Source: Idiomarinaceae bacterium HL-53
GTDB lineage: Bacteria; Pseudomonadota; Gammaproteobacteria; Enterobacterales; Alteromonadaceae
DNA length: 64,000 nucleotides
Reading direction: 5' to 3'
Assembly: GCA_001458075.1 (NCBI GenBank)
Contig: LN899469.1
Coordinates: forward strand, 1,090,659-1,154,658
Shown: piece by piece, positions 834 through 14,991 of the stretch
Numbering within the stretch: the stretch's first letter is position 1
How the letters are laid out: every line of letters begins with the position of its first letter
Notes under the pieces: model-generated
What the model was told of the DNA's origin: nothing
The model's input: the letters and a program-made list of their open reading frames with translations, nothing else
Database searches by the model: none
Position numbers and translations under genes: made by a program

Positions 834-865
834 AAAAGCCAGTTCTCATTCGAGAACTGGCTTTT
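834..865 (-). terminator. Rho-independent terminator of the FecR-repeat operon
   Basis: A perfect 14-bp stem (AAAAGCCAGTTCTC at 834-847 against 852-865) has a 4-base loop. On the minus strand it is followed by a run of T. It lies 18 bases beyond the stop codon of the giant FecR gene, so it ends that operon before the M20 gene. Confidence 0.85.
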
Positions 866-882
866 GTGCGTAACTTGAGCGT

Positions 883-3800
883 TTAAGGCATGCGCTCGAA
901 TATTTCGATACCGCGTACTAACTCACCATTTTCTATGAGCCAGGCGTCTATCATAGCCGCGATTCCCTCAGCTTCTTGACCGACGAAAGTGCCGGTGAGT
1001 GCACCGCTGTCGAATATTCCGGTGCCCTCAAGGGTTATTTGATTGTTATTGAACAAGGTTAAAAAGTCTTGCTGTAAAGCACTTAACGTATTTCCTTGCC
1101 CTTCATAGGTCAGATTCACATCAAACGTGCCGAAATAGAAGTCTACGTCGATAGCGCCCTCTGTGAGTGCTATCTGACTTCCATTCGCTGTGTTGATCAG
1201 ACCCCCTGTACCGCTAACCCAGCTATAGCTTGCCGAGCCAACGTTGATTTGTAAATCTGCCAAGGCGTCGGTGTTCGTGGCATTACTTACAATCATGTAG
1301 AAGTAGGGCGATGTATTGTCGTAAGGCACGTTGCCGTTCTCGCTATCTACTTCTTCGAGTGTGTAGCTTTCCGGCGCCCAGTAACCCCACAGAACGTCTT
1401 CATTGTCTGTACCTGTGACGATTGAATGACCAGCGCCGGTCCAATCATCTGCCGGATTTTGAGATTGTGTGGAGAATAGAGCACCCATGCCATTCATGCC
1501 TTCACCAAACAAGGCAAGCAGTGGATAATCTTCACCAGGAATTATATTAAATAGTAAGCCAGTCGTACCGTCGTCGGTGACTTGACTGAGTGCATTATTG
1601 GCACCATACAAACGATGATTTCGGCCAGGGTAAAGATCAGCCACGGTATCACCCGTAATCGGCTCGCCTCCGGTGAGGCCGCAAGGGAAGTCGGGGTTGC
1701 CTCCACAGAGAATGAATGGATAAAGACCGAATCCTGTGACTTGTTGACCGTCCATAAAATCCACATACAGACCAGCGAGTAAGCCATCAAGCCCCCAAGC
1801 GTCGTCTCCAGTTAACGTGCCATAGAAACGAATATCTTTGAAGTTCAATCCGTTACCATCATCAGCTAGCTCTATGTAGCTGTTGTAAAGATCGAATACG
1901 CTTCCCGTACCCCCCATGTAACCTGTGTAGGCACCCTCATAATACTGATAACCAATGTCGATGAGTAATTGCTGACTTTCATTCTCCGCGTCCAGATCAA
2001 GAACGATAGTGCTGTCATAGTCCAGTAGAAAATCAAGACCGTTTGACAGCTCCATACCGGTATTCGTATACAAAGTGAATTCCAATTGCCCCGAGTGGTT
2101 TGCATTCGCTATATCGAGTGCGGAACCCGGTGATCCGATCGTGTAATCGGAGATCAGGTAGGGCATGTTGCGCGTATTGTCCATCGTATCACCCCAGAAG
2201 TTCTCTAGGCTATACGAGCCACCTTCCCACACGCCCCAGTAAACGGTATTGAGTGAATTGGGATTTGAAACCTGCATATTGATATTTTCTGAAAACAGCG
2301 GCAGTGCGCCTTGATCCACTTGGAACGTATACGCATTGGTATTTACGTAAGTTGGAGCAAAGGTGCCTGCACTTATTTCAGTGATGTCCGCGTTACCGAA
2401 CGCTTCAAGCTCTGCGAGGTTTTCATCTAAAATGCCTGCATTGGTTAAGTTTTTACCTGCGATAGTCGGGAGGTTACTGAATGAACAGTCGTTGTTGTAA
2501 TAACAATGCGCGAACGCAAGTGTTCCGAAACCGAAATTCGTCTCGTCGCCGACAAGGCCCACTAACAAGCCCGCCAGTAAGCCATCCACGTTATAGTTAC
2601 CGTCTGAACTATACTCGCCATTTTTACCACTAAGTGCACCAAATAGTCTGGCGAATTCAACAATTGGCGTATCACCTTGCTCGAAGAGTTCAATATAGTG
2701 CTCATAAAGGTCTTGTACACTGCCCGACCCGAGCAATTCATGCACAATACTGAAACCTTCTGCTGAATAGGTTAAATCGAGTTGAACGGTGATGGTTTCA
2801 CTCGTCGGATCGATTTCCAACGTACTTGTCGGTTTTACAGCAAAGTTATCACCATTTGCGAACGCAATTGGCGTTGCGCCTGCAAACCTAAAGCTCATGG
2901 GTGAAGTGTAACTGTCGAGCGCGAGCGAAGCGGGGCCGTAATCCTCAAGATTAAACCCAGAATTATATACATGCGCATACGCAAATTGACGTTCGCCACT
3001 GCCTTCTAATGGATCGGTAAAGTCATCATCTGCTAAATCGTAGAAGTTCCAGTTACCCGCGTTGTACCACCCCCAGTAAATGGCTTGATCTGCGCGGGCG
3101 TCTGGCATCAAGGCATAGGCAGGATAAATAAATGCGTTGTTGGTATCGATTGTTCGCCAGAAAGCATAGTCGGTACCTTCTATATAATAAGGAGCCCAAA
3201 GCACATCACCTTGGCCCGAGCTGCCAGTGAACGAAATGCCCGGGTTCAAATCCACCCTTGGAACGTATCCGTAAGCCATTAACCCGCCATACACCTCTGG
3301 CTGTGGTGGAATTTCAGGCTCAGGATTTGGTTGTTCACAGCTCTCGCCCATCCAGCAATACAAGAAGTAGTGCAGGCCGAAACCGTTCCCAGTTTGGCCA
3401 TTAAGGTCTTGAATGGCCATATAAAGGCCGGTGAGCATCGCATCGATACCGCTTGCTTCCGTTCCGGTCATAGAGCCGTAGAGTCGTGCCAAATCAACAA
3501 TACTGTCGACAGCCGAGCCCTCTTCCATTTCTATGTAGCTATTGTAGAGATCTTCAACGGTACCTGAGCCGAATAGCTCACGGTTAATGAGGTCTTCATC
3601 ACCTGAATATTGGAAGATGAAATCTAAATAGACAGTGCCACTGCCAAAGTCGACCATAATCTCTGAACCAGAGCTTAGGCTTACGCTTTCGCCATTGCCA
3701 AACTCGATGCCCGTACCGCCGCCAAGCTGGAATACCGCTTCGCCTTCTTGTGCATGTTGAGCGGACACTACGCTGGTATAGTCTTCGAACGACTCAATTC

Positions 3801-6800
3801 GATTGTCAGCCATCAAGTAGGGGAACACATGATCGTTAGCCAAGGTATAACCAAGCGCATCTTTCAATGTGTAGGTACCGGGTGCCCAAGCACCCCACTC
3901 AATCACCGTCGTAGAGTCCGGATTCCACTGCGTAAGTGCATAGGTATTATGTTGCTCTGGTAATAAGCCGAGCGCCTCAAAGATTAGGCTTGATGACTGA
4001 ATCATCACCGGGAAAATACCATTGGGGCCTTGCTCTGCTTGGAAAGCACTCAGATCACGAACACGTTCTAGGTATCCCATAGTTGAGAGACCAATGCCCG
4101 CAGTTGGTACCTCGAGTGGTGGCGTGTAAGCAAACACGCCAGAGCCACGAAAGGTTTCATCATCTTGAATGGCCGTAATAAGCGCAATCAACGCATCAAT
4201 ACCCGAGCCCCCCAGCTCTCCAAACATACTGCCAGCGTCAAAGCCGTCGCCTTCTAATGAAATTGATCCGTTTTCGCTTAGGAAGGCGAGTAAATCGAGA
4301 TTACTTCCGGTAAGCATGGCTTGATTACCATCGTCATCGAACACCAACATGACGCCCATGCTGCCATCGGCAAAGTTAATGGTGACATTACCTTCAACAA
4401 ACGGCAGTACACGCCCGTCGGTTTCTGACACGAGGCCAGAACCTGAGATCTGATCAAAACGTTTTTCACCTTGTGTCGGTAAATCGCCCTCATAAGCATT
4501 CGTGAAGAGTACAAAGTGATAATTCGAAGCGGTGTCTAGCCAAGTGGGTTCTTCACCCTCGCTCTCTGCGGCGAGATACAATTGGTAGGCGTCTGCCATC
4601 CAATAACCCCACATGACGGCAACTTGACCGTTTTCGGTATCAAACTCAATCGCGTCGAAAGTAGTTCCTTGCTCCATGGCTGAAGCATCGGTCGCAATAA
4701 AACGCAAACTCCCATCACCACTTTCTTGAGCTGTAAGCAATCCGCTCTCCTGCAGGTAGGTAAACCACGATCCCATGCCATCTGAGCGCAGTTGCACCTC
4801 ATTATTTTGACCCAGTGCGCGGAAATTAGGTGCCTCAAATCCTGAAACTTGAGCACCAACATATGGGCAGGGGAAGTTAACTAAGCAATCGTTAAGGAAT
4901 GCCAGCATGCCATAGCCTTCCACAATCTCTTGAGTTTCAGGGTCCTCAATTATTAATTGTAGTGCGGCTAGGAAGGCATCGATTCCCCAGTCTTCGGAAC
5001 CGCTCACTACGGCGTATAAGCGCGAGCCTTCCTGAATAATTGGGTTTGCACTCATTTCTTCAAGCGCAATAAAGTTTGCGAACAACTCCATAAAGCTGCT
5101 ACTTCCACTCATATTACGCAGCTCTGTTTCTTCGCCATATGTGAAATCAATCGAGATCAATACTGAGTCTTCGAATGGGTTCACCGACACGAAAGACGTA
5201 TTGCCGACTGAGAAGAGAGCGCCATTGCTTAACGACACGCCAGGTCCGCTACCGAGCGTAAAAGTGATGCCAGATTGGAAGTGGTAATTGGTCACTAAGT
5301 CCGCAAACAACGTCGCATCGGTAATGGGGTTACTAGTGAGCAGATACATGAAGTCGAGACCGGTTTCCACTGGCTCACCCAGTGAATTTAGTAATTCGTA
5401 GTCGGTCTCGCTCCAGCTTGCCCAATTGATATCTGAATTCGAGGTCAAGAAGGTGCTGCTCGTGTTCAAATAACCACGATTCGCATTATTGTTCCCCGTG
5501 AACGTGAGCACGTCGTTCCCAAAAGATAATAAGTTCAACTCACCTGCGGGCTGCTCTGCTGCGTCGGTTAAAAGGCCAAAGACACCATAAGGTGAGAAGC
5601 CAACGCCGAATTCAGGGAGTGGTTCTGGCTCAGCAGTTTGTGCAAATACACCGGTACCACGGAAGATTTCTTCACCTTGTATTGCTTCAATTAATGCAAT
5701 CAATGCATCCATTCCGGCGCCGGCAAAATCGCCTTGCATGCTACCTGAATCGAATCCATCGCCCACTAAGGTGACGCCATTTTCGCCATTTAAGAATGAG
5801 AGTAAATCTAAGTTAGAGCCGGTGAGGACAGCTTCGATGCCTTCGTCATCAAAAACTAAAACCACGCCCATCGCCGCTTCATCAAAGTCGATATTAATCG
5901 TGCCGTCGAGGAATGGCAGCACGCGGCCGTCGGTATCTGATATCAAGCCTGAACCACCGGCAACTTCAAAACGTTTCGAACCCGTGGTAGGCAAGTTGCC
6001 TGTGTACTCCTCGGAAATGAAAATATAGTGATAGCTACTCGTGTTATCGAACCAAGTTGCTTCGTTGGTTTCAGTATCTAAGGTGTAGGCTTCGTAACTT
6101 TCGGCATCCCAATGACCCCACAAAACAAATAACGAACCATTTTCAGTTTCAATTTCTGTTCCCACGCTTTCATTGAGGAAGTTCGAGCTGACACCGGCGC
6201 CATCGGTACCGAAAAATCTGAGCGTACCCTCTTCATTTTCTTGAGCTGAAAAGAAAATGTTCTCTTCAAATAAGCTTAAGAATGTTTGGTCAGTACTGGA
6301 GCGAATTGTAATGTTACCGTTACCACCGAAGGTCAACCCGTCAGGTATGTCATTTGAAAGCGGTAATGTTGCTCCAAGAACAGGGCAAGGGAAGTTCACA
6401 ATACAGTCATTGACGAATGCCAACATGCCGTAACCTTCCACGTTTTGCTGGGTTTCGGGATCTTCAAGTAAGACATAAAGTGATGCGAGGAATGCGTCGA
6501 GCCCCCAGTCTTCCGAACCACTCAATACTGCCCAAAGACGGCCGTCCTGAATAATCGGATTCGCGCCTGTTTCAGTGAGCGCGATAAAGCTCTCAAATAG
6601 CTCCTGAAAGGATACTTCGCCCACCATGGTGCGATTTGCACTCGCTTGGTTGTAGCCAAAATCGATGGCGATAGCGATGTCTTGGGTGGATGGGTTGAGC
6701 GTAATACTTGAATTCTGACCAATCACGAACGACGCGCCGTTCTCCATGGTTACACCCGGGCCACCGCCAAATGTGAAAACGAGGGGGGCAGAGACGTGCC

Positions 6801-7989
6801 AAGTATCCATAATAAAAGATAGAGAATCCTCATCGAACACTGGGTTGCTGGTCAATAAATACATGAAGTCGAAGCCCGTATTGACCGGATCGCCAATCGA
6901 GTTTGTTAATGTATAATCGCCCACAGCCCAGCGTGCCCAGTTAATATCCGAGCTCGAGGTGGAGAAGAAATCTGCGGTATCGATATAACCTTGCTCGAAT
7001 TCATCTCCTCCCACAAAACGTAAGGCTGGAATCGTGTAATCGCCGATAAGGAACTCACCGGTAGGATTAATCGTATTGTCTGCGATGATTCCAAAAATAC
7101 CGAAAGGTGAGAAGTCCAAACCCCAAGTTGGCAAGTCGTCTGGCTCGGGTAAGTTTTCTTCAATATCGTCTTCACCTTGCTCTGTATTGGTATTCTCAGG
7201 CGGAGTGACAGGATCGCTCGATCCAGGTTGGTTGGTGCCGGGTGGTGTATTGCCGGGTGGATTGGTTCCACCGCCTAAATTCTGTGGTGGAGACGGATCG
7301 TCTTCATTCTCTTGTGCTTGCTGGCTTTCAAAGAAGGCTTCAGCTTCAACTGGCGCTGGCACTGGCGCCGTATTCTCGTCAGGCACATAGAATGTTTCGC
7401 CTGCGCCAATCAGCTGACTACCACCGTTGTTTGAAACCTCAACCGAACCTTGTTCTACTTGGACAAAAGTACCTTCAGGGAGATCGTTAAAGTCTCCCCC
7501 TTGGCCTAGCGGCACATGCACAATGGAAAGCACCGTACCGCGAATTCCCATGGTTGCCACGGGCGTTTTGAATTCCACGTTCTCGGGCTTGGCTCGACCG
7601 ATAGCTCCGGTCACTGCACGCAAACCACCTCGTACTAATTGAGTACGCTGAACGCTCGCATCAGGGTTATTCTCGTCATATTCGTACTCTTCAATTAAAA
7701 ATGTCGACTCTGGGCGTACTGCTACTAAGCTGTTATCGCTAAAACGTATTTGCGCACTTGAGGCACGTTGCGTCGTAATCACGTCTTGATTCAAGAGGTC
7801 GGTGCCACGTTCGGCAGGGTTAGTCTCCTCATTGCGAGTGAGTTGCACGGTGCCGTGTACAAATAATAATTGGCCGGCAGGAGCAGTATTTTCTTGTGCA
7901 GAGAGAGGGGCGCTCGTGCCCATCATAAATGCCATGCTCATAGCGAGCAGAGCGGCAATCCATGCGTTACGTGAAATCTTAGAAAACAT
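883..7989 (-). CDS. Giant secreted FecR-domain protein with eight beta-rich modules
   Basis: The product has 2368 residues. A signal peptide (about 1-31, ending APLSAQ) is followed by a FecR-type domain (about 45-205; TPVATMGIRGT is the typical core), then a Pro/Gly/Asn/Glu-rich linker (about 215-285), then eight beta-rich modules to the C-terminus. Each module carries a W-x-W motif of the form (V/I)xWGxWxxxxYxL, near residues 351, 624, 856, 1127, 1365, 1639, 1919 and 2201, so the period is 230-280 residues. Several modules end in a G-x-F-x-G pattern and a short strand like ...GTGVFA, which recalls small lipocalin-like or TbpB-like barrels. No membrane segment follows the signal peptide, so it is exported. 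The start overlaps the upstream TPR-barrel gene by 11 bases, which implies translational coupling. FecR domains here usually bind carbohydrate or ligand rather than a sigma factor. Function unknown; I infer a surface or periplasmic protein handled by the neighbouring barrel. Confidence 0.85.
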   Translation of the reverse strand: MFSKISRNAWIAALLAMSMAFMMGTSAPLSAQENTAPAGQLLFVHGTVQLTRNEETNPAERGTDLLNQDVITTQRASSAQIRFSDNSLVAVRPESTFLIEEYEYDENNPDASVQRTQLVRGGLRAVTGAIGRAKPENVEFKTPVATMGIRGTVLSIVHVPLGQGGDFNDLPEGTFVQVEQGSVEVSNNGGSQLIGAGETFYVPDENTAPVPAPVEAEAFFESQQAQENEDDPSPPQNLGGGTNPPGNTPPGTNQPGSSDPVTPPENTNTEQGEDDIEENLPEPDDLPTWGLDFSPFGIFGIIADNTINPTGEFLIGDYTIPALRFVGGDEFEQGYIDTADFFSTSSSDINWARWAVGDYTLTNSIGDPVNTGFDFMYLLTSNPVFDEDSLSFIMDTWHVSAPLVFTFGGGPGVTMENGASFVIGQNSSITLNPSTQDIAIAIDFGYNQASANRTMVGEVSFQELFESFIALTETGANPIIQDGRLWAVLSGSEDWGLDAFLASLYVLLEDPETQQNVEGYGMLAFVNDCIVNFPCPVLGATLPLSNDIPDGLTFGGNGNITIRSSTDQTFLSLFEENIFFSAQENEEGTLRFFGTDGAGVSSNFLNESVGTEIETENGSLFVLWGHWDAESYEAYTLDTETNEATWFDNTSSYHYIFISEEYTGNLPTTGSKRFEVAGGSGLISDTDGRVLPFLDGTINIDFDEAAMGVVLVFDDEGIEAVLTGSNLDLLSFLNGENGVTLVGDGFDSGSMQGDFAGAGMDALIALIEAIQGEEIFRGTGVFAQTAEPEPLPEFGVGFSPYGVFGLLTDAAEQPAGELNLLSFGNDVLTFTGNNNANRGYLNTSSTFLTSNSDINWASWSETDYELLNSLGEPVETGLDFMYLLTSNPITDATLFADLVTNYHFQSGITFTLGSGPGVSLSNGALFSVGNTSFVSVNPFEDSVLISIDFTYGEETELRNMSGSSSFMELFANFIALEEMSANPIIQEGSRLYAVVSGSEDWGIDAFLAALQLIIEDPETQEIVEGYGMLAFLNDCLVNFPCPYVGAQVSGFEAPNFRALGQNNEVQLRSDGMGSWFTYLQESGLLTAQESGDGSLRFIATDASAMEQGTTFDAIEFDTENGQVAVMWGYWMADAYQLYLAAESEGEEPTWLDTASNYHFVLFTNAYEGDLPTQGEKRFDQISGSGLVSETDGRVLPFVEGNVTINFADGSMGVMLVFDDDGNQAMLTGSNLDLLAFLSENGSISLEGDGFDAGSMFGELGGSGIDALIALITAIQDDETFRGSGVFAYTPPLEVPTAGIGLSTMGYLERVRDLSAFQAEQGPNGIFPVMIQSSSLIFEALGLLPEQHNTYALTQWNPDSTTVIEWGAWAPGTYTLKDALGYTLANDHVFPYLMADNRIESFEDYTSVVSAQHAQEGEAVFQLGGGTGIEFGNGESVSLSSGSEIMVDFGSGTVYLDFIFQYSGDEDLINRELFGSGTVEDLYNSYIEMEEGSAVDSIVDLARLYGSMTGTEASGIDAMLTGLYMAIQDLNGQTGNGFGLHYFLYCWMGESCEQPNPEPEIPPQPEVYGGLMAYGYVPRVDLNPGISFTGSSGQGDVLWAPYYIEGTDYAFWRTIDTNNAFIYPAYALMPDARADQAIYWGWYNAGNWNFYDLADDDFTDPLEGSGERQFAYAHVYNSGFNLEDYGPASLALDSYTSPMSFRFAGATPIAFANGDNFAVKPTSTLEIDPTSETITVQLDLTYSAEGFSIVHELLGSGSVQDLYEHYIELFEQGDTPIVEFARLFGALSGKNGEYSSDGNYNVDGLLAGLLVGLVGDETNFGFGTLAFAHCYYNNDCSFSNLPTIAGKNLTNAGILDENLAELEAFGNADITEISAGTFAPTYVNTNAYTFQVDQGALPLFSENINMQVSNPNSLNTVYWGVWEGGSYSLENFWGDTMDNTRNMPYLISDYTIGSPGSALDIANANHSGQLEFTLYTNTGMELSNGLDFLLDYDSTIVLDLDAENESQQLLIDIGYQYYEGAYTGYMGGTGSVFDLYNSYIELADDGNGLNFKDIRFYGTLTGDDAWGLDGLLAGLYVDFMDGQQVTGFGLYPFILCGGNPDFPCGLTGGEPITGDTVADLYPGRNHRLYGANNALSQVTDDGTTGLLFNIIPGEDYPLLALFGEGMNGMGALFSTQSQNPADDWTGAGHSIVTGTDNEDVLWGYWAPESYTLEEVDSENGNVPYDNTSPYFYMIVSNATNTDALADLQINVGSASYSWVSGTGGLINTANGSQIALTEGAIDVDFYFGTFDVNLTYEGQGNTLSALQQDFLTLFNNNQITLEGTGIFDSGALTGTFVGQEAEGIAAMIDAWLIENGELVRGIEIFERMP
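886..7134 (-). repeat. Eight tandem protein modules coded in the giant FecR gene
   Basis: The coding region for residues about 286-2368 is a tandem array of eight related modules recognised by the W-x-W motif. The first four form two A-B units of about 505 residues that are very similar (compare GFDFMYLLTSNP with GLDFMYLLTSNP, and SGSEDWGLDAFLA with SGSEDWGIDAFLA). The last four are more diverged, although they keep the W-x-W motif and the GFG...F..C pattern. This indicates one fairly recent duplication on top of older ones. It is protein-level repetition, not short DNA repeats. Confidence 0.75.
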
Positions 7990-9328
7990 AACTTATGCTC
8001 CCTTGCACTAATGTTTGATCTAAGTCGAAGAAGGTAATTGATGAGTTTTGCTCACGAACTTGAGCGAATAAACTTCCTCGCCAATGCTCGTTGGGCTGCC
8101 AGTTCCATTCAATTCGCGCTCTCCAACTATCATCTTTTCTTACGGTTGCTTGGCCACGATTAAAAATAGCAAAGCCAGCTTGATCATATTCTTGACGATC
8201 GTAACCTAGGGTGCCTACAAAATTATGTTGTGCATTCAACACCCAGTCAGCATTGAGTGAGGCTCGTAATTTGGTGGCATCGCCACCTTGTCGCGTTGGT
8301 TCTCGACTAACAGTTTCAAGCTCAGCGATTACTTGAGGACGCAAACGAATATGCTCGTTTACGCTATATAAAAAGGTGGTGTCGAAAGACCAACTGCTGA
8401 AATCGTTTCTGCTCTCAGCATGATTAAATTCTCTGTAGCTCCCAGTTACATGAATTGCAGAGCGCTGAGACACTGCGTGACGAGCGCCAAGGCTGATGCC
8501 CGACTGTGTACGATAGCGTGTGTTATCGAGCCATAAATTCGCAACTTCACCGCCGAAGCGTAGCTCTGTTCGATTATTTACAGGTACGCCCACAGTCGCT
8601 GCAGCATGCAACATGGTGGTATCAAAGATACTTGCTTCGCTATTATGGTTCACCCGCATTTGACCCATTACGCTGGTTTCCAAATAGGCACCGGTCTTTT
8701 CTTGATAACGCTTAAAGTAAACGCCGCGCAACGAGTTGTACATTGTATCGTCAGCCTCTAATACGGCTATCCCTTCCAAAATTGTGCCGGCAAACAAATC
8801 AAAACTATCTGGGTAGTTCAAGTAGTTACTGTCATAACCCGTGTCGAGTGAAATCATGATGAGTTGCGACTCATCCTGTGAACCAGTTCTGCGCTGAGCG
8901 ATCACCTCACGAAACCGAGTCATTGCTTCTCGAGCGCGTGGAGGAGGATTTAGGTTTTCAAGGAAGTTGAGCTGGCGCTCTGCTGCATTCACTCGGTCTA
9001 ATTGCAGGTACACTGCAACTAACTCTAAACGCGCACCTGCATGACGTGGCTCAGTCGCAATCACACGTTCAAGTGCAACTGAGGCCTCAAACAGCTCGCC
9101 AGCACGCACTGCAGCGACACCGAGCCAATAATCGAAATTGGTATCGCCAGCAAAGATATTTTCTTGTGCTTTAAATACAGCGAACGCCTCTTGCGCGCGC
9201 TGTTGTTGCAGGAGGGCTCGCCCTTCAGTTACGGTTGCATTCAATGTCGTTGTTTGTGCGTAAACATTGGCGTTTATAACGAGCCCTAATAATACGGCTG
9301 ACAATATTACTCTAATAAGCATAATCAC
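7979..9328 (-). CDS. TPR plus outer-membrane beta-barrel protein (Slam/DUF560-like architecture)
   Basis: The product has 449 residues. A signal peptide (about 1-24, ANVYAQ) is followed by TPR-like helices (about 30-145: GRALLQQQRAQEAFAVF, then ALERVIATEPRHAGARLEL) and then by a region of about 290 residues of alternating amphipathic strands that ends in an aromatic residue (ISYVF), as outer-membrane barrels do. The barrel begins with a GYDSNYL motif, which is typical of TPR-barrel proteins related to surface lipoprotein assembly modulators (type XI secretion). It overlaps the upstream gene by four bases and the downstream FecR gene by 11, so the three are made together. I infer that it passes the giant protein, or the small upstream protein, across or onto the outer membrane. 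A passive porin-like role is the alternative. Confidence 0.75.
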   Translation of the reverse strand: MIMLIRVILSAVLLGLVINANVYAQTTTLNATVTEGRALLQQQRAQEAFAVFKAQENIFAGDTNFDYWLGVAAVRAGELFEASVALERVIATEPRHAGARLELVAVYLQLDRVNAAERQLNFLENLNPPPRAREAMTRFREVIAQRRTGSQDESQLIMISLDTGYDSNYLNYPDSFDLFAGTILEGIAVLEADDTMYNSLRGVYFKRYQEKTGAYLETSVMGQMRVNHNSEASIFDTTMLHAAATVGVPVNNRTELRFGGEVANLWLDNTRYRTQSGISLGARHAVSQRSAIHVTGSYREFNHAESRNDFSSWSFDTTFLYSVNEHIRLRPQVIAELETVSREPTRQGGDATKLRASLNADWVLNAQHNFVGTLGYDRQEYDQAGFAIFNRGQATVRKDDSWRARIEWNWQPNEHWRGSLFAQVREQNSSITFFDLDQTLVQGSISYVF

Positions 9329-10005
9329 ACTCTGTAATGCTGAGATGGAAAATCTACGTTAATCTCATGGGGTAAAATCGAATAAGATTTGCCATGGTGC
9401 TCGTCGAGCACACACACTGCAAAGCCTTGCGGTTTGGATGAGTTTACAATGGTGTGGTAATTACTTCTGAGTTGGATTTGATGAATAAAGTCGTTGTGCC
9501 GACTCGGCACCGCAAGTCTACATTCATGAGATGTGGATTGGCAATGTATGAGGAGAAGCCAATTAGTATTGTCTTTCTGAATTGGACGAACATATCGTGT
9601 ATAGCCGAGGCTGTTGGCAGTGATGATATAGGTTAGTTGATCTAAGAACTCGAGATCTTGATTTACAGAGACGGTACTTTTTCTAAGCGACCATATAAAA
9701 GGAAAAATTCTGCCTCGAAGGAATATTACTCGAACATCGGAACAGTCATTAAACAATTTCGTCGGCTTGATACAACGCACCTGGAAGGTGCAGTAGACAG
9801 CGCCCAAAATAGAAATCTCTGGATCTGGGCTCGTGAAGATTAAATCTTCGATATAAGTCACGAAGAGGTCTTGGTTTTCATCTTGCGAGGCAATGCTCCG
9901 AGTTTCCAATGGCACCAGAATTTCATGGATAGCCCCTGAATTACAAATGAATAGAAAGAGTGAAGGCTTCAAAAGACTGATGGTGGAGGGTGAGATGCGT
10001 CCCAT
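9325..10005 (-). CDS. Unrecognised secreted protein, first gene of the FecR/barrel operon
   Basis: I do not recognise this protein. An ATG at 10020 would give 231 residues, but the ATG at 10005 has a good AGGA eight bases upstream, so I prefer 226 residues. It begins with a hydrophobic segment (about residues 10-25, LLKPSLFLFICNSGA) that looks like a signal peptide. The rest is rich in beta-prone and aromatic residues with several cysteines. It ends in an ATGA overlap with the TPR-barrel gene, which is strong evidence that it is a real gene of the same operon. It may be a periplasmic partner of the barrel or the FecR protein. Opposite-strand open frames here are shorter and have no ribosome site. 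Confidence 0.6.
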   Translation of the reverse strand: MGRISPSTISLLKPSLFLFICNSGAIHEILVPLETRSIASQDENQDLFVTYIEDLIFTSPDPEISILGAVYCTFQVRCIKPTKLFNDCSDVRVIFLRGRIFPFIWSLRKSTVSVNQDLEFLDQLTYIITANSLGYTRYVRPIQKDNTNWLLLIHCQSTSHECRLAVPSRHNDFIHQIQLRSNYHTIVNSSKPQGFAVCVLDEHHGKSYSILPHEINVDFPSQHYRV

Positions 10006-10074
10006 GATAAATGTCCTCATGTCCTTTTATTTAATATTTGTCGGGAGCACGAAATCTTTACATATTTTTAACGG

Positions 10075-10102
10075 ATTATAGCCCAGATTCATGGAGGAAC
10101 AA
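10075..10102 (-). promoter_or_regulatory. Sigma-70-type promoter for the FecR/barrel operon
   Basis: On the minus strand a -35-like TTGTTC (10102 to 10097) is followed after 16 bases by a perfect -10 TATAAT (10080 to 10075). It lies about 70 bases before the start of the first gene of the leftward operon. Confidence 0.45.
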
Positions 10103-10123
10103 GTGAATGGAAGTTTTTCTTTA
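10096..10123 (+). promoter_or_regulatory. Possible ECF-type promoter before the sigma/anti-sigma operon
   Basis: GGAACAA at 10096-10102 followed after 15 bases by TCTTTA (10118-10123) resembles the GAACTT / TCTGA pattern of RpoE-like promoters. It would let the sigma factor drive its own operon. It overlaps the -35 of the divergent FecR operon promoter. The match is partial. Confidence 0.28.
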
Positions 10124-10200
10124 ACTTATTCATATTGGTAGGGAATAAATACATGGGCAACTTCGTTTAATGATTAGAGATAACAATTGAGGAAGAAAGC

Positions 10201-10704
10201 TTGAGCATACAGAGAAGCGAGTGGTTGCAGTGGTATCCGGGAGCATTAGCGCTTGCTCGGCAATTGCTCAGCGGGGCAGATGAGGCAAAAGACATTGTGC
10301 AGAGCGCTTATATTAAATGCTTTGAGCATTCACGCATACCAACCGAGCCAGCCGCTCAGCGAGTTTGGCTGCTTAAGGTGGTTCGCAATAGCTGTATCGA
10401 TTACTTACGAGGTATACGCAAATTTAGTGATGAATCAAGCGAAGAACGATTGGACTCAAGCGCGACGCCAGAACAATCGCTCTCGCAAGAACAGCGCAAG
10501 AATCGACTACAAGAGGCACTGGCGTTGTTGTCGATAGATATGAGAGAGGTGCTGGTTTTGCGGGAAATGAATGAGCTATCTTACGCGCAAGTAGCAACAT
10601 TGCTGAACATTGAGCCCGGAACCGTGATGTCGCGCTTGCATAGAGCTCGCATGGCACTGAGAGCGCGTTTGCAACAAATGAATGAAGACGGAGGTGAGGT
10701 ATGA
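10201..10704 (+). CDS. ECF-family RNA polymerase sigma factor
   Basis: The product has 167 residues with the usual ECF layout: sigma region 2 (about 8-75; GADEAKDIVQSAYIKCF and the RVWLLKVVRNSCIDYLR segment), a short acidic linker, and region 4 (about 105-160; LSYAQVATLLNIEPGTVMSRLHRAR helix-turn-helix). It redirects RNA polymerase to a small regulon. The start is a TTG with GAGGAAG upstream; no ATG gives a full region 2. The stop overlaps the anti-sigma start by ATGA, so the two are made in step. The targets are unknown; the divergent FecR/barrel operon is a candidate because of position only. Confidence 0.88.
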   Translation: MSIQRSEWLQWYPGALALARQLLSGADEAKDIVQSAYIKCFEHSRIPTEPAAQRVWLLKVVRNSCIDYLRGIRKFSDESSEERLDSSATPEQSLSQEQRKNRLQEALALLSIDMREVLVLREMNELSYAQVATLLNIEPGTVMSRLHRARMALRARLQQMNEDGGEV

Positions 10705-11174
10705 GCCAGGTGCTTACATGTGAACACATTGAGCCAATGCTCTCTGGGTTTTTAGACAACGAACTGTCGCAATCGGAATCACAGCGGGTCGCATTGCATG
10801 TGAAACAGTGTGAGAAATGCGCAGCATTACTTGCGGAGATGAAAACGATGCAGAATGATTTACAAGCAATCGCAAAACAAGATCAGGGACATACTCAAGC
10901 GGAAATTGATGCGCTAGATCAATTGCTGAACGACACTCCCTCGCGTTGGTTAGGAACGATCGCATGGAGCCTCGTTGTGATGGGTGGCCTTATTGTGAGT
11001 GGCTTCTTTGTCTATGAACTCGGATTGACGCTGTGGCAAGATACAACTCAACCCTTGTGGCTCCGCGGTGCCATTGCAGCACTATATGTTGGCTTTGCTG
11101 GGCTATTTATCATGGTTCTGCGCCAGCGCTTAAAGTCTTTAAAAACTGATAAATATAGAAAGGTAAAATTATGA
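10701..11174 (+). CDS. Zinc-finger anti-sigma factor, membrane-anchored
   Basis: The product has 157 residues. The N-terminal 45 residues form an anti-sigma zinc-binding domain (zf-HC2/ZAS): Cys7 and the HVKQCEKC motif (H-x3-C-x2-C). After a soluble linker there are two hydrophobic segments (about 78-100 and 115-135), so it probably sits in the inner membrane with the sigma-binding domain in the cytoplasm. It overlaps both its neighbours by four bases. Members of this family hold the partner sigma factor inactive until a redox or envelope signal; H-x3-C-x2-C members are often redox-responsive, but that is not shown here. Confidence 0.82.
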   Translation: MSQVLTCEHIEPMLSGFLDNELSQSESQRVALHVKQCEKCAALLAEMKTMQNDLQAIAKQDQGHTQAEIDALDQLLNDTPSRWLGTIAWSLVVMGGLIVSGFFVYELGLTLWQDTTQPLWLRGAIAALYVGFAGLFIMVLRQRLKSLKTDKYRKVKL

Positions 11175-11497: not shown

Positions 11498-12969
11498 GTA
11501 CCACAGAAGGTATTTCCGATTTGTTCTTGTGGCTTGGGTGGGCGCGCAAAGCGATGTTCAAGCGCGGCTCTATCGAAAGGCTTCTGTAACTGCAGAAGCA
11601 AGTCATGAAAGACCGCTAAATCACCTTGTTGCTCAGCCTCTGTGATGGCTTCGGCGACGAGGTGATTGCGTGGAATAAGTGTGGGATTCACTGTTTGCAT
11701 TTGTTGGATTGCCTCGGTTCGTGTTCGTCCAAGTCGGTTAAGTCGTTCCGACCATTCGTGTAACCAAGGCTCCCAAGCAGCTTTGTCGCCGAGTTCAGAG
11801 TGAATCTGATGTGTGTCTAACCAATATTCGAGATGTAAAAACAACCGAGTGTAGTCCACGCTTTGCGCTTCCGCGAGGCTTAGCATGGCTTCAACCCACG
11901 CCTTGTCTTCCGCATTAATTACTTGTTCTGGGTTACCAAGCCCCAATTTTGCCAACATACCTTGATAATAAAACTGCTCATAGCGAGGCAGGAATTGTTG
12001 CACGATCTGCTTCATATCATTCACTGCTAACTCAGTATCCCCTCGCGCTGGAATGTGCAGGGTGAGAAGGCTTTCGGCAAGCCGTGAGAGGTTCCATTGC
12101 CCAATAATCGGCTGGCGCTCAAAGCGGTAGCGTCCATTCTTATCAATATAGCTATAAACTTGATCGCGTTTGAAAGAATCCATGAACGCACATGGGCCAT
12201 AATCAATCGTATCGCCCAGAATACTCATATTATCGGTATTCATCACACCGTGAATAAATCCAACTTGCATCCATTTTGCGATGAGCTTTGCCTGCCGCGT
12301 TACCACAGTGTCGAGCAGCGCGACTGCAGGATATGGGGTGTCTTTGAGTTCTGGAAAATAACTGTCAATGAGCCAATGCGTGAGCGCCTTCACTTGTGGC
12401 TCACCCCCATGTACAGAGGCAAATTGAAATGTTCCCACGCGCACGTGACTGCGGGCCACGCGGGTGAGAATGGCGCCAGGTTCTGCTTGTTCGCGATACA
12501 CCCACTCACCGGTAGCAACGGCTGCAAGGGCACGTGTCGTGGGAATATCGAGTGCGGCCATACTCTCACTGACCAAATATTCTCTGAGCACAGGTCCTAA
12601 TGGCGAGCGCCCGTCACCGCCTCGAGAGAAAGGGGTTCTGCCGGCCCCTTTGAGTTGAATTTCCCAATGCTGCCCATCTTTATCTTGAGCTTCTGCAATA
12701 GTGATGGCTCGACCATCACCGAGACGCGGATTGAAATGTCCAAATTGATGCCCTGCATACGCCGCTGCATAGGGTTCAAATTCCGCAAGTACCTCAGTTC
12801 CGGCTAAGAGCGGCAAAGCCGAATGCGTGTCTTGCAGCGCGGCGGGAAGTATCAGATTTTTTGCGAACTCAGTATTCCATGCAATCCATTGTGGCTCAGC
12901 GACTTCGGTAGGCGCCACCTTGGTATGGAAAAATTCGGGTAGTGTCTGAAATTGAGTGCGCGTAAACAT
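11494..12969 (-). CDS. selO: SelO/YdiU protein adenylyltransferase (AMPylator)
   Basis: The product has 491 residues, the usual length. SelO is a pseudokinase-fold enzyme that transfers AMP from ATP to Ser, Thr or Tyr of proteins, linked to oxidative stress in E. coli. The diagnostic stretches are present: GAGRTPFSRGGDGRSPLG (about 107-124), REYLVSESMAALDIPTTRA and HGVMNTDNMSILGDTIDYGP (metal-binding Asn/Asp). The C-terminus ends FCGT, so a Cys is kept near the end as in homologues where a C-terminal cysteine pair gives redox control; only one Cys is visible in the tail itself. It is convergent with the YbjQ gene. Confidence 0.93.
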   Translation of the reverse strand: MFTRTQFQTLPEFFHTKVAPTEVAEPQWIAWNTEFAKNLILPAALQDTHSALPLLAGTEVLAEFEPYAAAYAGHQFGHFNPRLGDGRAITIAEAQDKDGQHWEIQLKGAGRTPFSRGGDGRSPLGPVLREYLVSESMAALDIPTTRALAAVATGEWVYREQAEPGAILTRVARSHVRVGTFQFASVHGGEPQVKALTHWLIDSYFPELKDTPYPAVALLDTVVTRQAKLIAKWMQVGFIHGVMNTDNMSILGDTIDYGPCAFMDSFKRDQVYSYIDKNGRYRFERQPIIGQWNLSRLAESLLTLHIPARGDTELAVNDMKQIVQQFLPRYEQFYYQGMLAKLGLGNPEQVINAEDKAWVEAMLSLAEAQSVDYTRLFLHLEYWLDTHQIHSELGDKAAWEPWLHEWSERLNRLGRTRTEAIQQMQTVNPTLIPRNHLVAEAITEAEQQGDLAVFHDLLLQLQKPFDRAALEHRFARPPKPQEQIGNTFCGT

Positions 12970-13035
12970 TGCTTCCCCTTCGTATGATTCTTTCGTACTT
13001 TAACATGAATGAATACGGCAATGAGTGAGAGAAAG

Positions 13036-13536
13036 ATGAAGTTATTTTTGGTGTATGTTGGAGGCAGCGCTCCAGGTGCAAATATTGAGTTGCATGATGT
13101 TCGCTTTGTGGTTGGAAATGCTATTGAAGATTGTTACCCCCAATTACGTGCACAGTGGTATGGAACGAAGAAAGGGTTACATTTAGACAGCTATGTGGAG
13201 ATTCACCATGTCGATGGCTATGCAATTCAGTTGCAAAAAGAGCCGAGCGCACAAACAAAGAAACTTTATTTCGTGAATTTTGGCGGCTATTTACCCGGTA
13301 AATTAGCCGAAGTTCATGAATTTATGTTGTGCGTTGCAGGCAGTAGTGACGAAGCTAAACAACTCGGGAAGTCGCGCCTATTGGTGAATAGCGAAATGCC
13401 ACATAAAGATGATTTATATGAACTTGACGATTTATTGCAAGTTGATTTGCTCGATGGTTGGCATGTTCACCTTGAATACGACGGCATATCTCAGCCGCTA
13501 GCGCCCGACTGGGCTGGCTATGAGGTGATTGGTTGA
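13036..13536 (+). CDS. DUF1543 domain protein
   Basis: The product has about 166 residues from ATG 13036 (MKLFLVYVGGSAPGANIELHD), which has a GAGAGAAAG ribosome-like stretch just upstream; earlier in-frame ATGs at 13009 and 13021 lack one. It contains two similar halves, LFLVYVGGSAPGANIELHDVRF and LYFVNFGGYLPGKLAEVHEFML, each with a GG...PG...(E)xH pattern, which is the duplicated DUF1543 domain. It is small, soluble and has no signal peptide. Function unknown. It stands alone between divergent selO and rimO. Confidence 0.8.
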   Translation: MKLFLVYVGGSAPGANIELHDVRFVVGNAIEDCYPQLRAQWYGTKKGLHLDSYVEIHHVDGYAIQLQKEPSAQTKKLYFVNFGGYLPGKLAEVHEFMLCVAGSSDEAKQLGKSRLLVNSEMPHKDDLYELDDLLQVDLLDGWHVHLEYDGISQPLAPDWAGYEVIG

Positions 13537-13558
13537 GAGCCCGGAGCTGTAGTATAAT
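13529..13558 (+). promoter_or_regulatory. Sigma-70 promoter for rimO-dgt
   Basis: A perfect -10 TATAAT (13553-13558) lies 18 bases after TTGGTT (13529-13534), 44 bases before the rimO start, overlapping the end of the DUF1543 gene. Confidence 0.55.
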
Positions 13559-13602
13559 CTGTCGATATTTCGACCCATTATTTTGCGCAAATTAGGAGCC
13601 TC

Positions 13603-14991
13603 ATGAGCGTTCAAACTTTCGACCCGAATCAATCTGCCTCTCAAAACTTGGAGAAATCTGCAAATGCCGCAGGGCGTATTGGTTTTGTAAGTTTGGGCTG
13701 TCCGAAAAACTTAGTCGATTCAGAACGGATTTTAACGCAATTGCGTGTGGAAGGTTATGAGGTGGTGCCACAGTACAACGACGCTGAACTCGTCATTGTA
13801 AACACCTGCGGATTCATCGATTCAGCAGTACAAGAGTCGTTAGATGCCATTGGTGAAGTCTTGTCAGAGAATGGCAAGGTGATCGTTACCGGGTGCCTCG
13901 GTGCGCGCGATGCTGAAATTCGCGAAGTGCATCCGAACGTTTTGGCGATCACGGGTCCGCATGCCTATGAGGCTGTGATGGGACATGTGTATGAACATTT
14001 GCCAAAACCAACACAAATTCCTTTCGAACAATTAGTGCCCGATACTGGGGTGAAGCTTACGCCACGTCATTTTGCTTATTTGAAGATCTCTGAAGGGTGT
14101 AACCATCGCTGTACTTTTTGCATTATTCCCTCGATGCGCGGCGATTTAGTGAGCCGTCCTATTGGAAACGTACTCGACGAAGCACAGAGGCTCGCCAGTG
14201 CAGGGGTGAGAGAGTTATTAGTCATTTCACAAGACACAAGTGCCTATGGGGTTGATGTGAAGCACCGTACTGGCTTTTGGCAAGGTCAACCTGTCAAAAC
14301 GCGCATGTTGGAGCTCTGCCAAGCGCTTTCGCAATTGGGTATTTGGGTGCGTTTACATTATGTTTATCCTTATCCTTCTGTAGACGATGTAATCCCGATG
14401 ATGGCAGAAGGTAAAATTTTGCCATATCTCGATATTCCATTTCAGCATGCGAACAAACGCATTTTACGGCTTATGAAACGTCCCGGCTCCGCCGATCGAG
14501 TGCTTGAGCGTATTCAAAAGTGGCGTGAAATTTGCCCTGAACTCGTGATTCGCAGTACCTTTATTGTGGGTTTCCCCGGGGAAACGGAAGCGGAGTTTGA
14601 AGAGTTACTCGAGTTCTTGCGAGTTGCACAATTGGATCGAGTGGGCTGTTTCACTTATTCTCCTGTAGAAGGTGCAGTTGCCAATGACTTGCCAGATCCT
14701 GTGCCCGAGGCGGTGAAGCAAGATCGATTAGCGCGCTTCATGGCGGTGCAATCAGAAATTAGTGCAGCGAAGTTGCAAGCACGGATTGGTCAAGAGATGC
14801 GAATTCTCATTGATGAAGTGACACCAGACGGCGCCGTGGGTAGAACCTATGCCGACGCGCCTGAAATAGACGGCGTAGTGCATTTAACCGATGAGTTCGA
14901 TGTGCAGCCGGGTGATTTGATTTGGGGTGAAATTATTCACGCCGACGCACACGATTTATGGGCGGTAAAAGTAGACGATTCGGATGATTGA
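13603..14991 (+). CDS. rimO: Ribosomal protein S12 methylthiotransferase RimO
   Basis: The product has 462 residues. It adds a methylthio group to Asp89 of ribosomal protein S12 using radical SAM chemistry and two 4Fe-4S clusters. Visible: the N-terminal UPF0004 domain with [15 protein letters not shown] (about 27-41) and further cluster cysteines in VNTCGF and TGCLG; the radical-SAM motif CNHRCTFC (Cys166, Cys170, Cys173); and a C-terminal TRAM domain (about 395-455). The length is about 20 residues above E. coli RimO because of an N-terminal extension. A good AGGAG precedes the ATG. The end overlaps dgt by eight bases. Confidence 0.96.

Follow-up and report, generated by a model that had tools for sequence, protein, structure and literature searches.

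Type XI secretion systems (T11SSs; the Slam, NilB and HrpB proteins of DUF560, PF04575 with the repeat profile PF24575) combine N-terminal tetratricopeptide repeats (TPRs) with a C-terminal outer-membrane barrel, which the portions of PMC5449769 and PMC8406197 that treat it describe as 14-stranded. In the corresponding portions of these two papers and of PMC12282271, T11SS cargo consists of a variable N-terminal part and a C-terminal eight-stranded barrel, and some of it is soluble; Sphingomonas and Psychrobacter proteins with two to three handle-barrel pairs are also mentioned there (PMC12282271). Here we analysed 64,000 nucleotides from the 2.74 Mb genome of Idiomarinaceae bacterium HL-53 (contig LN899469.1, positions 1,090,659 to 1,154,658; this whole stretch is hereafter called the window), in which the gene for a TPR-barrel protein overlaps the gene for a giant FecR-domain protein. 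We consider it reasonably likely that the pair consists of a divergent exporter of type XI (Slam-like) and a cargo protein dedicated to it. The initial annotation had proposed a possible undescribed export system, a description that is not supported in the strict sense, as the pair resembles a divergent T11SS branch. No publication describing a TPR-barrel/FecR pair was found in the open PMC literature.

As in T11SSs, the window exporter candidate presents N-terminal TPRs and a C-terminal barrel of similar size, and the neighbouring gene encodes a protein with, by eye, a signal peptide and with modules resembling cargo barrels. Unlike the cargo architectures given in section 15 of PMC12282271, however, this partner carries a FecR domain, and the term FecR occurs in none of PMC12282271, PMC8406197 and PMC5449769. 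The features of the two genes, in window coordinates, are as follows.

7979..9322, minus strand: TPR and outer-membrane beta-barrel gene, the proposed T11SS-like exporter (447 aa from the ATG; 449 from GTG 9328)
8885..9241, minus strand: periplasmic TPR helices, N-terminal, residues 28-146 (Pfam TPR_19; helices in the AlphaFold 2 (AF2) model)
8825..8839, minus strand: GYDSN motif at the barrel start (alignment)
7979..8875, minus strand: C-terminal barrel domain, 12-13 strands modelled, ending in Y-V-F (AF2 model; Foldseek)
7979..7989, minus strand: 11-base overlap of the exporter stop with the FecR gene start, shared by 13 of the 46 pairs seen in relatives
883..7989, minus strand: giant FecR-domain protein, the proposed cargo (2368 aa, 255 kDa, calculated pI 4.05)
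7897..7989, minus strand: signal peptide, residues 1-31, Sec-type, without lipobox (by eye)
7441..7785, minus strand: FecR domain PF04773, residues 69-183 (Pfam, 36.4 bits, cut-off 24)
7129..7332, minus strand: acidic, proline-rich linker, residues 220-287 (sequence)
6355..7128, minus strand: module 1, odd type (hidden Markov models (HMMs) of the modules)
5620..6354, minus strand: module 2, even type, TbpB-like (module HMMs; profile comparison)
4846..5619, minus strand: module 3, odd, sharing 52% identity with module 1 (module HMMs)
4105..4845, minus strand: module 4, even, sharing 47% identity with module 2 (module HMMs)
3280..4104, minus strand: module 5, odd (module HMMs)
2440..3279, minus strand: module 6, odd (module HMMs)
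1675..2439, minus strand: module 7, odd, with a beta-rich fold and blocks of predicted local distance difference test (pLDDT) values of 65-92 over its first 240 residues (AF2, Foldseek, HMMs)
886..1674, minus strand: module 8, even, C-terminal, the proposed exporter-recognition barrel (module HMMs; profile comparison)

Relatives of the barrel protein were first found in 16 of 58 genomes, and a 12-sequence profile (A1) was then run on 295 family genomes, where it matched in 77, covering 28 of 52 genera, with strong matches in 72. Linkage was counted on 77 strong barrel matches (at least 146 bits), omitting 15 weaker partial rows; five of the genomes had rows of that sort only. A FecR profile (A5), which was built from FecR proteins beside barrels and favours that type, matched in the same 72 genomes, and a script placed a FecR gene directly downstream of 75 of the 77 barrels, or of 76 if the barrel of genome G171, whose match is split, is included. 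The search for a FecR gene of this type lacking a strong barrel match returned none in the 295 genomes sampled, an absence valid at the sensitivity of a search in which, for many genomes, at most five candidates were scored. For ten of the 85 FecR rows, no strong barrel match immediately precedes them. One of these belongs to the split G171 barrel and another is merely the latter part of a FecR match broken in two (G225); the remaining eight are separate, weaker rows whose open frames span 176-259 aa, and every genome concerned has the pair as well. In the window's own genus both genes are present in 4 of 17 genomes and absent from the other 13. By these counts, the two genes are strictly linked in the genomes sampled.

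Inspection of 51 loci, 36 of them hand-picked from strong matches chiefly for genus spread, yielded 48 with a barrel gene; the other three had been fetched on weak matches and held none. A FecR-domain open reading frame (ORF) follows directly downstream on the same strand in 46 of these 48. At the first exception, L025, the barrel ORF is interrupted by a stop and FecR is still next; the in-frame stop in barrel gene and long lipoprotein gene (5261-10470) may stem from an assembly error, decay or another cause. At the second, L108 (1953-8214), a barrel of the family precedes a CsgG/TPR protein that resembles FecR weakly, near what looks by eye like a caspase-like protein, which puts this exporter family in another setting.

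To place the barrel family, we compared the profile of its 48 full members with that of 15 Slam proteins using hhalign. Over the whole length the two align at 99.92% probability (E 7.8e-35) across 424 collinear columns at approximately 12% identity, with BcsC at 27% and PgaA at 96% (E 8e-9) as controls; the corresponding profile scores are 268 for Slam, 75 for PgaA and 38 for BcsC. This ranking was stable in three random 12-row subsets (Slam 99.9%, PgaA 96-97%, BcsC 28-90%). The barrel part alone matches Slam at 99.4% and the controls BcsC at 20%, PgaA at 88% and DUF2860 at 98.5%. A plain porin was rejected, Porin_4 reaching 58% with the barrel part of the family and 0.2% with the window's six-sequence clade, which at full length, TPRs included, ranks Slam (98.2%) over PgaA (23.9%) and BcsC (7.6%). 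In Pfam (E ≤ 0.001), 16 of the 48 members match SlipAM (PF04575), 16 match DUF2860 and 11 match TPR_Slam, and relatives beside FecR genes in four genomes (G023, G031, G062 and G084) exceed the SlipAM cut-off. By these profile comparisons, Slam, DUF2860 and the TPR-barrel family form one group, within which the combination of TPRs and barrel is the layout of Slam. The DUF560 similarity anticipated for the barrel gene is accordingly present at the level of the family, in 16 of 48 members and end to end by hhalign, whereas the window protein itself scores under the cut-off. DUF2860 (PF11059) shares the last barrel strands, but its eight fetched members total 317-368 residues, which leaves no space for a TPR domain, and in two loci (L030 and L031) no adjoining FecR gene was seen by eye. 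Separately, frames of 308-320 aa above the SlipAM cut-off, too short for a TPR domain, were seen in other genomes of the window's genus (L053-L055 and L058).

The window protein itself was correctly recognised at the outset as TPRs followed by a C-terminal outer-membrane barrel starting at GYDSN (449-codon ORF 7979-9328, minus strand). Its TPR_19 match reaches 32.9 bits (cut-off 25), and within the motif G162, D164 and N166 are invariant in 12 sequences, D164 and N166 also in 48. An AF2 model built from three sequences shows TPR-like helices and 12-13 strands, and Foldseek searches with it returned outer-membrane barrels, with BcsC on top and 37 matches at E ≤ 0.001. A sequence search of the PDB with the barrel alignment gave matches in the TPR region only, among the best 60 of 144 matches. 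Two records of the salt-water genus Aliidiomarina contain relatives of the exporter candidate, with 63% and 57% identity over the best-matching segments, which makes this genus the probable origin of the window.

The giant protein was likewise described well from the start: it is a 2368-residue FecR-domain protein with a signal peptide and no C-terminal membrane anchor, the last two judged by eye, and it is built of repeated modules, of which profile HMMs find eight. A scan against all of Pfam (E ≤ 1) found no domain other than PF04773 in it. FecR anti-sigma regulators share this domain, but where they have a cytoplasmic anti-sigma domain and one transmembrane segment the giant protein has, by eye, a signal peptide and a secreted layout. 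The modules average approximately 255 residues and fall into five odd and three even ones, as classified by HMMs built from the modules themselves. Odd modules end in G-F/Y-G...F and then a loop of the form C-x(n)-C with n of 4-7, and even modules in R-G-x-x-x-F. Modules 1-2 and 3-4 form a duplicated pair; in all other pairings, the modules of the window are 22-34% identical to one another, and most window modules find their nearest match in the collinear module of L018. The nine giants seen, which come only from the window's genus and genus g50, contain 4, 4, 5, 5, 6, 6, 6, 8 and 9 modules, and the final module is even in all nine, according to models built from the same modules. In L117, the giant ORF (3362-9787) carries an almost pure (EP)n stalk between the FecR domain and the modules, about 330 residues long by eye.

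Even modules resemble the small barrels of TbpB and haemophilin cargo (PF01298), with which they share the order 'WG-W', 'G-S-A-S-Y', 'VDF', 'G-x-F-x-G-x-x-A' and a final '..F'. The profile of 21 even modules matches that of 19 TbpB-type cargo proteins at 88.8% (hhalign, E 2.5e-6) over 146 columns that reach the C-terminus, and a separate alignment gave 85.4%. Reversed profiles reached 0.1-0.2% and 40 column shuffles no more than 0.2%, while cadherin repeats gave 0.1% and FecR N-terminal domains 0.3%. Odd and even modules are related to each other at 98.6%. Foldseek searches with the model of module 7 placed TbpB (4o3w) at rank 2 (E 3.5e-3, probability 0.72), the first by E-value among matches with a probability above 0.5 and not significant; other small barrels, lipocalins and avidins, follow with probabilities up to 0.85 among the 50 matches listed. 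The low confidence of one half of the module model keeps the accompanying TM scores low. The proposal that the modules are TbpB-like small barrels is supported for the even modules by profile-profile comparison and, not significantly, for one odd module by its fold. Searching the modules against the PDB by sequence gave nothing useful. Compared with TbpB-type cargo, the giants differ in having four to nine modules in tandem, in the C-x(4-7)-C loop that ends the odd ones and in lacking, in the window's giant protein, a lipid anchor.

Several observations speak against an exporter and its cargo. On the side of the barrel, the window protein scores 12.8 bits for SlipAM (cut-off 22) and 22.6 bits for DUF2860 (cut-off 22.9), the latter rated over the cut-off once neighbouring matches in the frame are added, and its last strands fit DUF2860 better than SlipAM. 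For the barrel part of the window's clade, hhalign likewise gives DUF2860 94% and Slam 28%. Nine of the 48 family members match BBP2_2, and NCBIfam assigns nine to EpsL, five to BcsC and one to PgaA, none of the listed families being Slam. The barrel model is poor, with a pLDDT of 58 overall and below 50 for residues 147-207, which include the barrel start. On the side of the modules, subsets of the even modules range from 1 to 93% against TbpB-type cargo, the odd modules reach 0.1%, and the C-terminus of short FecR proteins reaches 53%, or 2-16% in subsets. The TbpB-type HMM matches the nine giants weakly (E 2e-4 to 0.43; 0.051 in the window), and Pfam TbpB_B_D matches one of the 21 even modules (E 0.067). 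AF2 applied to modules 7-8 resolved module 7 alone, module 8 staying below a pLDDT of 50, and no Foldseek match of the module 7 model attains E 0.001. Finally, two giants (L092 and L116) continue for approximately 80 residues beyond their last even module.

With these points as reservations, the exporter-cargo idea came through the checks proposed for it at the outset. The window pair most likely functions like a T11SS, and it is not filed under PF04575 because the exporter candidate misses the cut-off. Our assessment is that of a divergent type XI secretion pair carrying a new cargo design, which probably extends a secretion system already known by a further branch whose passenger is unusually large. 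The giant protein would fit the T11SS cargo plan with the FecR domain as its variable N-terminal part and the extra modules lying between that part and the final barrel. It would cross the inner membrane via Sec, the TPR barrel would recognise its C-terminal even barrel, and the chain would be handed through the outer membrane. On the cell surface, the array of modules may remain attached or be released and may bind a ligand or a surface. If so, a single barrel would let through eight modules in one chain of 255 kDa. With this natural repeat protein, and with relatives that have between four and nine repeats, recognition of the last barrel could then be tested against recognition of every barrel, and folded against unfolded crossing. 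The pair would also add to the T11SSs a branch found in 72 of 295 family genomes with a FecR partner unmentioned in PMC12282271, PMC8406197 and PMC5449769.

The relatives with short FecR proteins (292-856 aa, at 39 loci) differ from the giants in their surroundings. An ORF of 700 aa or more comes immediately after the short FecR gene at 32 of the 39 loci and after the giant gene at none of eight, and 26 of the 32 long neighbours have a lipobox-like motif. Pattern searches further detected a metallo-beta-lactamase-type gene at no fewer than 16 of the 39 short-FecR loci and a CHASE2-type tail at no fewer than 18, several fetched stretches ending before such downstream gene types could show; at the eight fetched giant-FecR loci, a long ORF, a metallo-beta-lactamase-type gene and a CHASE2 tail were all not found. 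Three long neighbours that were scanned are Big_9/cadherin-type repeat proteins, the one CHASE2 protein scanned has a nucleotide cyclase domain, and one beta-lactamase-fold protein was confirmed. FecR and CHASE2 are linked elsewhere, in a Burkholderia FecR-LysM/CHASE2 operon (PMC5192318) and in Sinorhizobium SMc02177 (PMC5498481), and the relevant portions of these papers place no TPR barrel beside FecR. In our reading, a short FecR with a separate long surface protein and a single long FecR protein answer one need in two ways; in the window lineage, the FecR protein itself would have become the long molecule through module duplication.

This arrangement allows a broader interpretation, which we regard as unlikely: the exporter and the FecR-barrel protein would form one surface-display module together with the giant surface lipoprotein, whose length ranges from 750 to 5449 residues among the loci seen, the enzyme with a metallo-beta-lactamase fold and the CHASE2 cyclase. 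This would be a large unnamed T11SS branch linked by gene order to cyclic-nucleotide signalling, in which the FecR-barrel protein would shuttle the giant to the exporter, and in the window lineage shuttle and surface fibre would be a single molecule with up to nine cargo-type modules in a row. A related and quite unlikely explanation is that the barrel exports the neighbouring giant lipoprotein while FecR serves as a periplasmic adaptor or plug with an exporter-binding barrel, the two being merged in the window lineage. The frequency of long, often lipobox-bearing neighbours beside short but not giant FecR genes agrees with it, as does the lack of a cargo-type barrel in any of the 32 long neighbours at E 0.001 (best 0.01), since proteins in which no such barrel of their own is detected would need an adaptor. 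Seven of the 39 short-FecR loci have no such ORF by the limits used, however: in L026 the contig ends, in L094 the gene is in two pieces and in L104 the FecR match is split, while L023, L115, L121 and L123 show no long ORF. Moreover, we know of no T11SS adaptor of this kind, which also counts against the proposal.

Some of these neighbours deserve mention in their own right. The longest one seen, in L245 (243-16592, minus strand), is a 5449-codon lipoprotein-like gene right after the FecR gene. A 5888-codon frame in G171 (contig C10) was considered as a giant FecR and rejected, as it comprises a FecR gene of 426 codons and then a separate lipoprotein-like gene of 5449 codons. L021 is the one relative with a lipoprotein-like gene on the upstream side, an 811-codon gene (11663-14098, minus strand) located 4 bases upstream of the barrel gene, with a sub-threshold Big_9 match alone.

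That the barrel is instead an exopolysaccharide porin of the BcsC, PgaA or EpsL kind, with FecR as a periplasmic accessory, is very improbable. It would account for the combination of TPRs and barrel, the Foldseek rank of BcsC and the NCBIfam matches (EpsL 9, BcsC 5 and PgaA 1 of 48), and PF04575 also takes in some PgaA proteins, as stated in a portion of PMC8406197; the profile scores of PgaA and BcsC, however, fall far under that of Slam, and no polysaccharide synthase was recognised by eye in the printed parts of the locus ORF lists, no search for one having been made. Least probable of all is FecR signalling, in which the giant would be a periplasmic sensor for an extracytoplasmic function (ECF) sigma and anti-sigma pair or for the CHASE2 cyclase, with the barrel as outer-membrane partner: the FecR domain, the adjoining ECF sigma and zf-HC2 anti-sigma genes and the CHASE2 cyclase downstream in many related loci speak for it, but the giant has a signal peptide (by eye) and neither a cytoplasmic anti-sigma part nor a membrane anchor, the sigma gene already comes with a zf-HC2 anti-sigma, L022 lacks the pair and L020 the sigma ORF, and family-profile scans gave the window barrel no TonB-receptor match. 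The sigma and anti-sigma genes (10201-11174, plus strand) are divergent from the FecR-domain operon that they adjoin; by eye, the pair is retained in L018, L019 and L021 and absent from L022, and in L020 an anti-sigma-like ORF is listed and a sigma ORF is not.

Upstream of the exporter candidate, the initial annotation had counted a third gene for a small secreted protein (ORF 9325-10020, minus strand, 231 codons). Its codon score is -0.07 per codon, compared with a mean of +0.25 and a minimum of +0.12 for training ORFs (those outside 880-10100 among 30 long window ORFs) and an off-frame mean of -0.16. Its best Pfam match (E 0.098) is under the cut-off, NCBIfam and PHROGs gave no match, no relative was found among 146 other family genomes, and in L018, L019, L020 and L022 the gap upstream of the barrel gene is too short to hold it. 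On its non-native codon usage and its lack of family matches and relatives, we rejected it as part of the system. It is possibly a foreign or decayed gene, because none of 500 base shuffles of the region produced an ORF as long. A three-gene operon is not supported, and two overlapping genes are left. Of the two overlaps reported, that of 11 bases is conserved, whereas that of 4 bases needs both this ORF and the GTG start at 9328; the alignment prefers ATG 9322, with which the barrel gene therefore does not overlap ORF 9325-10020.

At its other end, the pair is followed by one further feature.

834..865, minus strand: terminator-like hairpin of 14 pairs, 3' of the giant gene (hairpin scan)

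The scan returned 7 terminator-like sites against a shuffle mean of 9.3, and the stem at 834-865 is the longest of them, the runner-up having 8 pairs. After the hairpin, the next gene in the window encodes an M20-type peptidase, and what seems, judged by its ends, to be the same peptidase gene follows the giant gene in L018, L019, L020 and L022.

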